Of a stretch of DNA of 5,033 nucleotides, positions 860 through 4,754 are shown piece after piece. This DNA is from Chloroflexota bacterium. Lineage in GTDB: Bacteria > Chloroflexota > Dehalococcoidia > DSTF01 > JACRBR01. Both the position numbers and the translations under genes were made by a program. The stretch covers positions 1 to 5,033 of the forward strand of contig JAKAMA010000214.1 in the NCBI GenBank assembly GCA_021813085.1, read 5' to 3'. The notes below the pieces were generated by a model, which was given only the letters and a program-made list of their open reading frames with translations, ran no database searches and was not told the origin of the DNA. How positions within the stretch are numbered: position 1 is the stretch's first letter; each line of letters begins with the position of its first letter.

Positions 860-2107
860 TCAGCCACCGACGCGCCGATACACCAGGCAGGCGTTCTGGC
901 CCCCGAGCGCGAAGCTGTTCTTCAGCGCCACCCGCAGCGGCGCGGCCCGTGGCCCCTCCGCGACGTAATCCAGATCGCACGCCGGATCCGGCTCCCGCAG
1001 GTTGATCGTTGGCGGGATGACGCCGTCACGCAGAGCCATCACCGTGACGACCGACTCGATCGCCCCCGCCGCGCCCAGCGCGTGACCCAGCATCGACTTC
1101 ACCGAACTCACGGCGACGCGAGACGCGTGGCACCCCAGCGCGAGCTTGAGCGCGCGGGTCTCCGCCACGTCGTTCAGCGGCGTCGACGTGCCGTGCGCGT
1201 TCACGTAGTCGACCTCCGCCGCGGCGACGCCCGCATCTTCGAGCGCGAGGGCGATGCAACGCGCGGCTGCCGTGCCATCGGGACGCGGCGCGAGCTGATT
1301 GTGCGCGTCCGACGTTGACGCGACGCCGGCGACCTCGGCCAAGACCGGCGCCCGCCGGCGCTGTGCGTGCTCCCGCTCTTCAAGCACCAGCATCGCGGCG
1401 CCTTCCGTCGGCACGAAGCCGTCGCGGCGCCGGTCGAACGGACAGCTCGCCTCTTCCGGCGGACAGTCGCGCGTCGAGAGCGCCCGCAGCGCGGCGAACG
1501 TCGAGAGCCCGTACGGCGTGAGCCATGCTTCGGTGCCGCCGGCGAGCGCGACATCCGCTCTTCCCGCGCGGATCATCTCGGTCGCCTGGCCGATGGCCAT
1601 GGTGCCGGACGCACACGATGCCGTACAGGTCAAGATGGGCCCCCCGAGGCCGAGCGCGATGCTCACCTGCTGCGCCGCCACGTCCGGGAGCGCCTTCACC
1701 AGCGTCAGCGGATCCATGCCGCGCCAGCCGCGCGCCCGCCAGCCGTCCACCAGCGCCGGCCCACAGGGGAACCCTCCGCTGCCGTTCCCCACCACCGTTG
1801 CGACGCGCCGCCCATCGACGGCGTCATGAGCGAGCCCGGCGTGCTCCCACGCCTCGCGGGCCGACGCCAGCGCGAACTGGGAGAAGGGCAGCAGACGCCG
1901 CGCCTCGACCCGCCCCAGCATCTGGCACGGGTCGAAGTCCCGCACCTGCCCCGCGGCCCGGCACGGAAGGTCGCACGCGCCACGGTCGAGCGCCGTCACC
2001 GCCGAGCGTCCTTCGCGCACGCCCCGCCACAATGCCGCGGCGCCCACGCCGAACGGCGTGACCGCGCCCAGCCCGGTCACCACCACGCGCCGCCGCGGCG
2101 CGGTCAC
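860..2107 (-). CDS. Beta-ketoacyl-ACP synthase II (FabF-like ketosynthase)
   Basis: 415 aa, the normal FabF length (about 410-415). Ketosynthases of this family condense malonyl-ACP with an acyl thioester, extending the chain by two carbons. The thiolase fold is complete: VVVTGLGAVTPFG at 8-20, catalytic Cys165 in TASCASG, PFDRRRDGFV at 223-232, His305 in NAHGTSTPLND, Lys337, and His342 in GHALGAAG, giving the Cys-His-His set of decarboxylating condensing enzymes. Two deviations are visible: TEGA at 234-237 where GEGA is usual, and NSFALGGQN at 397-405, where Leu401 replaces the Phe that gates the FabF active site. The start is GTG at 2107, overlapping the ACP stop as GTGA; no separate strong ribosome site is seen, so translation is probably coupled. 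It is the last gene of the cluster. The one-to-one pairing with its own ACP suggests a specialised acyl or polyketide-type product rather than bulk fatty acid synthesis; that is inference. Confidence 0.95.
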   Translation of the reverse strand: MTAPRRRVVVTGLGAVTPFGVGAAALWRGVREGRSAVTALDRGACDLPCRAAGQVRDFDPCQMLGRVEARRLLPFSQFALASAREAWEHAGLAHDAVDGRRVATVVGNGSGGFPCGPALVDGWRARGWRGMDPLTLVKALPDVAAQQVSIALGLGGPILTCTASCASGTMAIGQATEMIRAGRADVALAGGTEAWLTPYGLSTFAALRALSTRDCPPEEASCPFDRRRDGFVPTEGAAMLVLEEREHAQRRRAPVLAEVAGVASTSDAHNQLAPRPDGTAAARCIALALEDAGVAAAEVDYVNAHGTSTPLNDVAETRALKLALGCHASRVAVSSVKSMLGHALGAAGAIESVVTVMALRDGVIPPTINLREPDPACDLDYVAEGPRAAPLRVALKNSFALGGQNACLVYRRVGG

Positions 2108-2379
2108 GGCGCGACGGTCTGCCGCGCGGCGACGTACTCAACCACGTCGCGCACGGTCTTGAAGGCCTGGAAGTCGACCTCCTCCGTCACGACGATCGCG
2201 AAGCACTCTTCCAGCGCCATCGCCAGCTCGAACGCGTCGAGGGAGTCGAAGTCCAGGCTTGCCTGCGTCCCGTCCTGCGAGAACAGCCGCGTGTCCTCCG
2301 CGACCGCCGCCGCGTCGAGATCCTTGATCTCGGCGATGATCGCGGTGACCTGCCGCCGCACGTCTGTGGCTTCGAGCAC
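2104..2379 (-). CDS. Acyl carrier protein
   Basis: 91 aa from the chosen GTG, the typical ACP size. It carries the growing acyl chain on a 4'-phosphopantetheine arm. The attachment site is Ser46 in DFDSLDAFELAMALEE (44-59 region), matching the DSL motif at the start of helix II. The following KTVRDVVEYV fits the last helix, and the N-terminal half (VRRQVTAIIAEIKDLDA) fits helix I. Start choice: the frame stays open upstream to 2520, but that part lies inside the metallopeptidase gene and is Ala/Arg/Pro-rich, unlike an ACP. GTG at 2379 has AGGGA 8 bases before it and gives the right length. The gene starts 20 bp after the upstream stop and overlaps the ketosynthase start by four bases. Helix II reads EECFAI, with a Cys and fewer acidic residues than housekeeping ACPs (usually EEEFGI), which supports a dedicated partner role for the adjacent ketosynthase. 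Confidence 0.92.
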   Translation of the reverse strand: MLEATDVRRQVTAIIAEIKDLDAAAVAEDTRLFSQDGTQASLDFDSLDAFELAMALEECFAIVVTEEVDFQAFKTVRDVVEYVAARQTVAP

Positions 2380-2399: not shown

Positions 2400-3254
2400 C
2401 TACTTCCCGCCCGGCGGTGGGGGTGGCGGCGGCGGGGCCGGCGTGCTTGTGGCCGTTGGCACGGCGGTCGGCGAGGGCGTGGGGGTGGGGAACGTCTGCC
2501 AGAAGACGTCGTGCATCCACTTGTTCGTGTGATCACCTGTGGGGCTGATGCGGCAAGGCGTGCCGCTCTCGCAGGGAATAGTGAGGAGGTTGTTCTTGCT
2601 GACAACCGGACCGACGGGCCCCCCGCTCTGGTGCAGGTGCGGGCCAGACGAAATGGGGCAATCAGGGTGCTTCACGCGGCCGAGATAGAAAATGTTCCAG
2701 TCGCCGCCGATCAGGAACGTTTGGTCCACCCGCCGTTGATCGATGTGCACGAACTCGAAGCGGGCGATATCTTTGACCTGGTCTTCGGGCTTGTAGATCC
2801 GGACGCTCACCCCACTGCACGTTGTGCCGTGCGGCTGAACTTTCGCAACGAGCCAGGCGCTTGGTGCCATGTTGTAAGCCTGGAAGTAGACTGGGGCGCC
2901 GCACACCGCGGGGGCCGGCCCCGGTCCGTCCGGGTCGACGGACTGGTCAGGCGGACACGGACCAACCACCGAAGGGTCGGTCACGGTGCCATCGCCCTTC
3001 AGGAGGTCGAGCGCCGGCCTCCCCGTCCCGTCGTCGCAGTGCCACCAGTCGCCGTACGTCGGTGTGTTGCACGCATACGGCTGGAGCTCGGCCTGCGTCC
3101 ACCACTCCGCCCGGGCGTCCATCGTCGCGAGCCCGACGATGACCCTCAGGTGATGATCCTCGGCGGCGGCGATCCCGAGACCCGCAGCCAGCGCCGCGGA
3201 ACCGGCCCCGGCGGCGGCTGCTGCCCTTACCCACGTCGCGCGCGTTCGCCTCAT
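2400..3254 (-). CDS. Exported LasA/M23-like putative zinc metallopeptidase with Pro-rich tail
   Basis: 284 aa. Residues 1-31 form a Sec-type signal peptide: basic MRRTRATWVR, an Ala/Gly-rich core and likely cleavage after AAA31. M23 enzymes of the LasA type cut peptide cross-links or glycine bonds in cell walls or matrix. The zinc and active-site pattern can be traced: His72 and Asp83 (RPALDL), His170 in FVHID, and His206/His208 in SSGPHLH. From memory, LasA uses the same order (His, Asp about 13 on, His, then HLH after a Cys), and the spacing His170-His206 agrees. Between Asp83 and His170 there is a Pro/Asp/Gly-rich insertion (about 91-120). Eight cysteines (62, 73, 100, 118, 146, 199, 228, 234) could form four disulfides, in keeping with export. 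The protein ends in a Thr/Pro run and eight prolines (255-284) with no further domain. AAGGGGG lies 9 bases before the ATG. HLH is followed by QSGG rather than the usual FEV/FSL, so it may be a non-catalytic relative. Confidence 0.6.
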   Translation of the reverse strand: MRRTRATWVRAAAAAGAGSAALAAGLGIAAAEDHHLRVIVGLATMDARAEWWTQAELQPYACNTPTYGDWWHCDDGTGRPALDLLKGDGTVTDPSVVGPCPPDQSVDPDGPGPAPAVCGAPVYFQAYNMAPSAWLVAKVQPHGTTCSGVSVRIYKPEDQVKDIARFEFVHIDQRRVDQTFLIGGDWNIFYLGRVKHPDCPISSGPHLHQSGGPVGPVVSKNNLLTIPCESGTPCRISPTGDHTNKWMHDVFWQTFPTPTPSPTAVPTATSTPAPPPPPPPPGGK

Positions 3255-3285: not shown

Positions 3286-3999
3286 TCAGCGCAGCGATTC
3301 AGCGACTTTCAGGAGTTCGGCGAAGTCGGCAATGTCCCCTATGATCTCCGTGGTGATTCCACGGTCGATTACATACAGGCGCTGGGGGCCTCCCTGGCCG
3401 GGCTTACTCCGGAAGAACACTGCGGGAGCGCCGACCACGGTCCCCTCTTCAAGCGCGACCCAACTGTCCACAGGCGGCACCCGCACATCGAGCGGCAGCG
3501 GGCGGCGGCTGCGAGAGATTGAGATTTCCGTAGCGCCGATCGCCCCCGGGAACCGCCAGACGATGTCCCGTACTTCACGGCCGCAGAGGTAGTCCGTCGT
3601 CGGCGGCTGGTACGTGAAGCCGGCGGGGATGTAGCCGACGGTGACGTAGAGGTCGGAGGCCTGGATCAGCGCCGGTATGTCCAGCCCCGCTTCCGGGCTG
3701 GCGCACGCGGGCTCAGAGCGCGCCGGCGCGCTTCCGGGCGCATCCTCGTACCCGTAGGGCAGGATCCGGAACGGTCCCTTCACCACGGCAGGCCCGGGGT
3801 TCTTCGGGTAATTCGGGACCTGCACGTTGACCGGCCCCTGCTGGCCGGATGGCCCGGTCGCCCGCACCTCCACGCGCGTGCTCGGCTCCTGGCCGCTGGT
3901 CAGCGCGCGCGTCCCGAGGATCGTGCCGGCAGCGACCACCATGATCGCCGCCGCGGCCGCGATCACCCGCGTCCGCGTGAACCAAGAGGATCTGTTCAT
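3286..3999 (-). CDS. Membrane-anchored extracytoplasmic protein, DUF4367-like C-terminus
   Basis: 237 aa; no confident family. Residues 1-11 are basic, 12-30 form one hydrophobic helix (IAAAAAIMVVAAGTILGT), and the rest is extracytoplasmic by the positive-inside rule: a type II anchor or an uncleaved signal. Residues 35-100 are Pro/Gly-rich and probably unstructured. The folded part starts near 108. VGYIPAGFTYQPP (121-133) and the ending (LYVIDRGITTEIIGDI, then FAELLKVAESLR) resemble the DUF4367 pattern of a 'P-GY/GF' motif and a final 'el-kiAeSl' helix, found in the exported parts of anti-sigma-factor-like and sporulation proteins. Two cysteines (99, 139) could pair. The ATG overlaps the GNAT stop as ATGA and has a strong GGGAGGG site 5 bases upstream, so it is translationally linked to the GNAT gene. 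The M23-like gene follows after 31 bp. A role as partner or sensor for that exported protein is a guess from context. Confidence 0.8.
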   Translation of the reverse strand: MNRSSWFTRTRVIAAAAAIMVVAAGTILGTRALTSGQEPSTRVEVRATGPSGQQGPVNVQVPNYPKNPGPAVVKGPFRILPYGYEDAPGSAPARSEPACASPEAGLDIPALIQASDLYVTVGYIPAGFTYQPPTTDYLCGREVRDIVWRFPGAIGATEISISRSRRPLPLDVRVPPVDSWVALEEGTVVGAPAVFFRSKPGQGGPQRLYVIDRGITTEIIGDIADFAELLKVAESLR

Positions 4000-4682
4000 C
4001 GTTCCCTCCCGTCTCGTGCGCCCTGGCGACTGCCTGCCGTCACTCCGTGCTCTTTCTGCTCCGCCGCAATCCCGGTCCCAGCGGCGAGATCATCTTCCAC
4101 CGCCGCGATGAACCCGTAGCGCCGCATCGCCTGCGCCCAGTCCTCGCGGCGCAGGCTGTAGAACAGGTGGTCCCAGTAGCGGTCCCGGTACCACGAGTGC
4201 TCCCGGAGCCGCCCCTCGTACCGGAACCCCAGCTTCTCGTTGAGCCTGCGACTGGCGTCGTTGAAGGCGAAGATCTCGCCGCAGAGCTTGCGGAGGGGGA
4301 ACTGCTCGAAGAGGTAGCGGCTGAACAGCGCCGCCCACTCGCCGAGCTGCGGCCGCGCGCGGAACGGCGGCTCGACGTATGCCTGTAGCCAGGCCCAGCC
4401 GTCGGCGATGTTCAGGTTGTAGGCGCGCGCGAAGCCAAAGCGCGCCCCCGTCGCCTGCTCGACCAGCAGGAACGTGACGCCGTCGCGCAGCCACGCCTCG
4501 AGCATCGGGAGGAACTGCGGGTACGTAGTCACCTGCCGGTACTGCGAGGTCCAGAGCGGCGCCTCGTCGCGGTCGCTCCACCACCGGAAGATCAGCTCGA
4601 AGTCCTCCGGCCAGACCGGCCGGAGCGCCACGTGCCGCCCCTGCATGGCGGCAGGTCGGAAGATGTCTCCCTGCGAAACCAC
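3996..4682 (-). CDS. GNAT N-acetyltransferase (RimJ/RimL type)
   Basis: 228 aa. Members of this group transfer an acetyl group from acetyl-CoA to an amine, such as protein N-termini, amino sugars or small molecules; the acceptor is unknown here. Seen: LRPVWPEDFELIFRW (20-34), typical of the first strand-helix; FRARPQLG (107-114) in the place of the CoA pyrophosphate loop; and the diagnostic C-terminal block FNDASRRLNEKLGFRYEG (140-157) with REHSWYRDRYWDHLFYSL after it. Residues from about 184 on form an Ala/Gly/Arg-rich extension beyond the usual GNAT end. Start: GTG at 4682 has GAGGGG 9 bases before it. ATG at 4646 (residue 13) would also give a normal GNAT N-terminus but has no ribosome site. 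It is the first gene of the cluster, about 38 bases downstream of the expected transcription start, and overlaps the next start as ATGA. Confidence 0.9.
   Translation of the reverse strand: MVSQGDIFRPAAMQGRHVALRPVWPEDFELIFRWWSDRDEAPLWTSQYRQVTTYPQFLPMLEAWLRDGVTFLLVEQATGARFGFARAYNLNIADGWAWLQAYVEPPFRARPQLGEWAALFSRYLFEQFPLRKLCGEIFAFNDASRRLNEKLGFRYEGRLREHSWYRDRYWDHLFYSLRREDWAQAMRRYGFIAAVEDDLAAGTGIAAEQKEHGVTAGSRQGARDGRER
4004..4010 (-). promoter_or_regulatory. Strong ribosome binding site inside the GNAT 3' end
   Basis: GGGAGGG on the minus strand, 5 bases before the ATG at 3999. It lies within the last codons of the GNAT gene (encoding Gly-Arg-Glu), so the C-terminal residues of GNAT are partly dictated by this site. 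This is the best Shine-Dalgarno sequence in the cluster and suggests that the membrane-anchored protein is made at a high level relative to GNAT. Confidence 0.7.
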
Positions 4683-4726: not shown

Positions 4727-4754
4727 ATCATATCACGGGGGGGGGGGTTGTCAA
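4727..4754 (-). promoter_or_regulatory. Extended -10 promoter of the five-gene cluster, homopolymer spacer
   Basis: Read on the minus strand: -35 TTGACA (4754-4749, a 6/6 consensus match), a 16-bp spacer, and -10 TATGAT (4732-4727, 5/6) preceded by TGA, an extended -10. The expected transcription start is near 4720, giving a leader of about 38 bases before the GNAT GTG. It is the only stretch in this otherwise GC-rich region with such AT-rich hexamers, and it is placed exactly upstream of the first cluster gene. The spacer is A, eleven C, GTGA. A 16-bp spacer is one short of the 17-bp optimum, so gain of one C would give the ideal distance and loss of bases would weaken the promoter. Confidence 0.75.
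4737..4747. repeat. Homopolymer tract, 11 G (plus) / 11 C (minus)
   Basis: An uninterrupted mononucleotide run lying wholly between the -35 and -10 hexamers. Runs of this length are prone to slipped-strand mispairing and also to sequencing or assembly length errors, so the exact count of eleven should be treated with care. Confidence 0.9.

Follow-up and report, generated by a model that had tools for sequence, protein, structure and literature searches.

A predicted promoter with a C11 spacer ahead of a five-gene operon in a likely Dehalococcoidia bacterium: a candidate slippage dial

The window analysed here, 5033 bases in length, is one complete contig of a likely Dehalococcoidia assembly (2.52 Mb, 399 contigs, 77% complete). 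Named relatives point to the neighbourhood of Chloroflexota, class Dehalococcoidia, and the class name is taken from them. Its minus strand carries five co-directional genes in the order GNAT, exported protein 1, exported protein 2, acyl carrier protein (ACP) and ketosynthase, joined by 4-bp overlaps or by gaps of approximately 20–31 bp. An initial annotation of this DNA had described such a cluster downstream of a promoter, with two exported proteins in it, and both points held: signal-like N-termini, that is, hydrophobic N-termini judged by eye, are found in two of the five products. The first gene (3996..4682, minus strand; Pfam Acetyltransf_3, 2.6e-12) encodes a cytoplasmic-type GNAT-family acetyltransferase. 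Its start codon is a GTG at 4682, with an in-frame ATG further inside, and it has a weak PseH-type match, under the cut-off of that model. Exported protein 1 (3286..3999, minus strand) has no Pfam family above its cut-off. Exported protein 2 (2400..3254, minus strand) belongs to a rare family with a VH...HLH pattern. They are followed by the ACP (2104..2379, minus strand; PP-binding, 2.9e-8), which probably starts with the GTG at 2379, and by a FabF-like beta-ketoacyl-ACP synthase (860..2107, minus strand; PRK07314, over its cut-off).

Upstream of this operon, also on the minus strand, lies a predicted sigma-70 promoter. It consists of a perfect −35 hexamer, TTGACA (4754-4749), a 16-bp spacer of the form A-C11-GTGA (4748-4733) and the −10 hexamer TATGAT (4732-4727), with a TG one base before it (extended −10). 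Most of the spacer is the C11 homopolymer (4747-4737), i.e., a G/C run of at least about eight bases between the two boxes. The tract was read directly from the sequence, and the hexamers both directly and by consensus scan. The site 4754-4727 is the sole sigma-70 match of that scan in the 5033 bases, with 11 of the 12 consensus bases, and dinucleotide shuffles of the window gave a mean of 0.2 promoter-like sites against the one found. The promoter, the C11 tract and the 16-bp minus-strand spacer of the initial annotation are thus all confirmed by direct reading.

Exported protein 2 has few relatives. When 7997 candidates drawn from the protein collection were scored, seven came out at E ≤ 0.01; the closest, at 87% and 82%, are known as proteins alone, and the second of them is the NCBI Dehalococcoidia protein ACYC9X_11025. 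A match was found in six of the 393 genomes of the class, with its own genome included and one of the matches weak. The VH...HLH pattern is kept in all eight rows of the family alignment; HLH itself is found in 8/8 rows and GxHLH in 7/8, so that an HxH motif near the C-terminus is conserved. Such a motif is a feature of peptidase M23/LytM. The search for known families gave none for this protein in Pfam at E ≤ 1, in NCBIfam at 0.001 or among PDB sequences at E ≤ 1. The predicted fold is weak overall, with a mean pLDDT of 57, although residues 120-200 are modelled better, and because of this and the missing family match the protein was not filed as M23. Of the description "metallopeptidase-like" there remains the short HLH motif, whereas a Pfam family at E 1 is absent.

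A relative of exported protein 1 adjoins the exported-2 gene in another genome of the class (G075, E 5e-6), and because the relatives are paired there, the two exported genes look like a module. In three Tepidiforma genomes (L094, L095, and L096), a window-type exported-1/exported-2 pair is located directly after a clpC-like gene. At L095 and L096 an ORF resembling part of clpC follows the module (by eye), which gives the impression of an insertion into a duplicated clpC. A C-run promoter is not a feature of the module as a whole: four of the five window-type exported-2 loci are without it, and no C-run of at least 7 was seen in the 7 kb fetched around the loci of G075, G161, G140:C2, and G374.

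An orthologous promoter was found neither in 60 relatives, nor among 84,980 genomes searched from a pattern seed, nor in the 393 genomes of the class. The pattern-seeded search gave three GNAT relatives, the best at 47%, and the operon of this nearest relative (G014) has no C-run. The two genomes of the same genus (G001 and G002) have weak GNAT matches and no exported-2 match. In G014 a GNAT gene is again followed by a gene for a predicted exported protein, and in G006 and G047 the sequence preceding the GNAT relatives resembles the end of an exported protein (by eye); from these gene orders, this looks like a loose GNAT-exported neighbourhood across genomes.

The window's own genome offers a measure of how its promoters are usually spaced. 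The pattern TTGACAN15-19TANNNT gave 62 rows, of which two are nested, and its reversed form gave one; because of this difference such sites are considered a real class in the organism. The other 61 rows have spacers of 15 bp (1, a row nested inside another), 16 bp (8), 17 bp (28), 18 bp (23), and 19 bp (1), so that 51 of the 61 are 17 or 18 bp long. A TG precedes the −10 box in nine of them. No spacer among these 61 rows contains a C-run above 5, the maximum being 5. The earlier suggestion that 12 Cs would bring the window promoter closer to its optimum agrees with these counts, since 17 bp is the commonest spacer of the genome (28/61 rows).

Long C/G runs are rare in the same genome. Runs of at least 9 occur at three places in the 2.52 Mb, namely, a C9, the C11 of the window and a C14. 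Those of at least 11 amount to two, compared with approximately 34 expected from the base composition of the window. Given this shortage of long runs, the retention of one within a near-consensus promoter is notable. The C9 run is inside an ORF resembling a Rieske protein (by eye). The C14, the longest run of the genome (L050, G000:C390, 1508-1521), is apparently intergenic; it is flanked by a galactokinase-like gene and another ORF (by eye), with GC-rich inverted repeats close by.

The frequency of such spacers in the class was examined in 393 genomes with the pattern TTGACN0-4C7N3-9TANNNT, which is blind to gene content. C-run spacers were found in 42 rows (39 distinct) from 33/393 genomes, with 7 matches for the reversed control. 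The matching G-run scan gave 38 rows (35 distinct) from 31/393 genomes, with 10 for the reversed control. When good promoters were defined by a spacer of 16–18 bp and at least 10 of 12 consensus matches, 13 carried a C-run, the window among them, versus 14 with a G-run; two nested duplicate C rows had been removed before this count, whereas nested G rows were retained. The idea of C-runs as a special promoter class was abandoned, as the G-run scan gave as many matches. Runs of at least 10 number 2333 in 272/393 genomes (a sum transcribed by hand). Nine of them (0.39%; seven C and two G) are inside promoter-like spacers under a loose pattern, which by our own estimate is about what intergenic location gives. 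These class-wide counts show no sign of selection for C-run spacers as such. The chance that one of the two long runs of the window's genome falls in a promoter-like spacer is 0.8% at the class rate, or 2.8% when run-poor genomes set the rate (8 of 577, the numerator being our own count); these figures are background and do not amount to proof.

The first genes behind these promoters were also compared. Of the ORFs that begin no more than 300 bases away, the longest was taken, and it was called exported when hydrophobicity reached at least 2.0 in its first 60 residues, a rule which counts membrane proteins too and misses at least two exported proteins of the C set (L072 and L080, by eye). The C set comprised 34 of the 39 distinct sites (the window, G241, two of the three sites in G352, and one of the two in G140 were left out) and the G set 33 of 35 (G310 and G116 left out), whereas the ordinary-promoter set consisted of 30 loci among the matches listed. 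Sites without an ORF were dropped (4/34 C, 4/33 G, and 2/30 ordinary). Exported first genes follow 11/30 C-run promoters, 6/29 G-run promoters and 6/28 ordinary promoters; for the C set against all controls, this is 11/30 versus 12/57 (p 0.13). The C set is partly redundant (L073 and L150 are ortholog-like, and L078 and L079 lie in one module). A preference of C-run promoters for exported genes, although in the right direction, is not significant and was not retained.

Some single loci of these scans deserve mention. Genome G088 has several homopolymer-spacer promoters, with runs of C14, C9, C7, and G13 (L148, L069, L147, and L135). Those with C14 and G13 precede predicted exported proteins, and G088 is a candidate for a genome rich in such loci. 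At L072 (G235:C159), a promoter with a C11 spacer is followed by a short ORF whose beginning is signal-like and then by a second ORF resembling lectin-type repeats (by eye).

The matches of one genus are clustered in arrays. The genus (g67) is Tepidiforma, a name inferred from the label of a 94% exported-2 relative (Tepidiforma sp.). Three of its genomes (G140, G190, and G352) contain six C-run promoters, each before an exported-1 gene, with an exported-2 gene following in five of the six cases. The tracts are C10 and C9 in G140, C9 on the lead copy of G190, whose inner copy has an interrupted run, and C8, C7, and C8 on copies 1, 2, and 3 of G352. The exported-2 families of the window and of Tepidiforma are related at the profile level (across 103 columns of small alignments, hhalign gives a probability of 88 and E 3.1e-6), and the exported-1 families show a weak match (probability 34, E 4e-4, 56 columns).

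Copies 1 and 2 of G352 are identical from the −35 box to the start codon except for one C of the tract; in the 40 bases compared after the tract there are 0 substitutions, yet one copy has C8 and the other C7. Together with copy 3 and the second copy of G140, they are 0 to 2 substitutions apart, with tracts from C7 to C9. From the comparison of these copies, a change of tract length in a predicted −35/−10 spacer is an event that occurs within the same class. The G352 array (L082, 6417-2324, minus strand) looks partly broken, which could be an assembly error: copy 2 is without an exported 2 of its own, that of copy 1 is broken up across frames, and that of copy 3 shares an ORF with its exported 1, which leaves the usual frame.

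The Tepidiforma spacers range from 13 to 17 bp, with 13–16 bp in five of the six and 13–15 bp in four; provided that the hexamers are right, those of 13–15 bp would be poor promoters. Other loci of the Tepidiforma family (L102, L106, L107, L109, L182, L184, L185, L186, and L187, the last a weak match) showed no C-run in the stretches fetched. The G332 locus is truncated by a contig end, and that of G119 shows a C9 run that lacks clear hexamers. The chance of one C-run match over the 14 other loci of the module is approximately 0.001, or 0.0016 over 16 loci by a recount, a post hoc figure which takes 39 promoters per 393 genomes, assumes 1000 promoters per genome and treats a tandem locus as one event.

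Taken together, these observations suggest that the C11 of the window may serve as a slippage dial in the promoter spacer, in the manner of opc and porA, a proposal which, on the sequence comparisons at hand, we regard as evenly balanced. Slippage in replication would add or remove one C, the distance between the boxes would shift and the strength of the five-gene operon would shift with it. The C11 state corresponds to 16 bp, as in 8 of the 61 other rows of the genome; C12 and C13 would give the 17 and 18 bp seen in 51 of them, and C10 the 15 bp seen in one. From this spacer preference, the assembled C11 is likely an intermediate state, with one slip up being strong and one down being weak. 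The TG of the extended −10 likely sets a floor to expression. The varying output would be surface or secreted proteins, namely, the two predicted exported proteins, one of them from the rare family with the HLH motif. A mutator background is not supported: MutS domain I was found in 14 of the 16 genomes examined, including that of the window. With mismatch repair apparently present, slips would be expected at a moderate rate and not at that of a mutator. Slippage at the window site, a change of expression with spacing and a benefit of the variation are what we infer here. The type of mechanism is already known, its host is unusual and the evidence is moderate.

The strongest rival is that a working promoter has acquired its C-run by accident: the tract would slip occasionally and would never have been selected as a switch, the variants being mild or purged. 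This is a serious possibility, to which we give somewhat less than even credence. The class-wide counts agree with it, as C-run and G-run spacers turn up at the same rate (approximately 0.1 per genome each), few of the long runs lie in promoter-like spacers and the exported-gene excess is not significant. The placement chance of 0.8 to 2.8% is counted on this side too, the site having been picked for its oddity. Against an accident stand the recurrence of C-run promoters in Tepidiforma, ahead of a rare exported module that is distantly related (approximately 0.001 to 0.0016, post hoc), and the depletion of long runs in the window's genome. The slippage dial is placed above mere accident because the scan, though blind to gene content, also matched C-run promoters before the related Tepidiforma modules.

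An artefact, by which the run is mis-assembled or mis-sized or transcription starts elsewhere, appears improbable. The window is a whole contig of a fragmented and incomplete genome, and homopolymers are prone to error; however, a perfect −35 box, a −10 box with five of six bases and a TG, a usable spacing and an operon downstream are not the products of a sizing error, and a C10 or C12 would still leave this promoter architecture intact. A fixed promoter, in which the homopolymer serves DNA shape or the binding of a regulator and not a change of length, is highly improbable, for although the near-consensus boxes with the extended −10 suggest a strong promoter whose spacer could be tuned by stiffness, and the class tolerates both C- and G-run spacers, near-identical Tepidiforma copies differ in tract length, which a fixed site would resist.

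A wider proposal may be put forward with more reserve. Dehalococcoidia might possess promoter contingency loci, in the form of slippage-prone C-tract spacers placed before a shared rare exported module in two lineages of different families; we consider this possible but rather doubtful. If it were true, the cells of one population would differ in their dose of the surface machinery encoded by the exported module, and the tandem C7–C10 copies of Tepidiforma would form a graded array. Most known cases of promoter phase variation through slippage in homopolymers come from host-associated pathogens, and its presence here would suggest bet-hedging at the surface against other pressures, for example, phages or surfaces. 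Because the Tepidiforma copies differ in little besides their C-count, the idea can be put to the test in a non-pathogen. As far as the literature was searched, this would be the earliest description of homopolymer phase variation in Chloroflexota; the titles and the openings of the abstracts listed hold no report of phase variation in this phylum. Excerpts of PMC5084427, PMC2831843, and PMC11868660 were covered as well.

Among known systems, the Bordetella fim promoters are activator-dependent; their C-stretch, upstream of the −10 box, separates that box from the activator site, and slippage in the stretch alters expression. The parallel with fim drawn by the initial annotation is thus a loose one: a C-stretch in the promoter region is common to both, but that of fim lies outside a classical −35/−10 spacer and that of the window inside one. 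A closer parallel is provided by the Tepidiforma arrays of the same class, in which a C-run in a predicted spacer is also located upstream of an exported module with a profile-related exported 2. These arrays differ from the window in their −35 boxes (TTGACG in five of six, TTGACA in G190) and −10 boxes (TAGGCT, TACGCT, or TACCGT), and their modules are tandem, with no GNAT, ACP or ketosynthase noticed alongside. Neisseria meningitidis offers a likeness in architecture. An excerpt of PMC2791445 describes the porA, fetA, and opc promoters as having unstable homopolymers between −10 and −35, and in an excerpt of PMC3960869 the opc tract is poly-C. As in these promoters, a G/C homopolymer occupies the −35/−10 spacer of the window, one slip equals 1 bp and the operon includes predicted exported products. 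Unlike them, for which variation and its effect on expression have been reported, the window site is known from one assembled sequence, its first gene is an acetyltransferase and its host, likely a Dehalococcoidia bacterium, is represented by a fragmented assembly.
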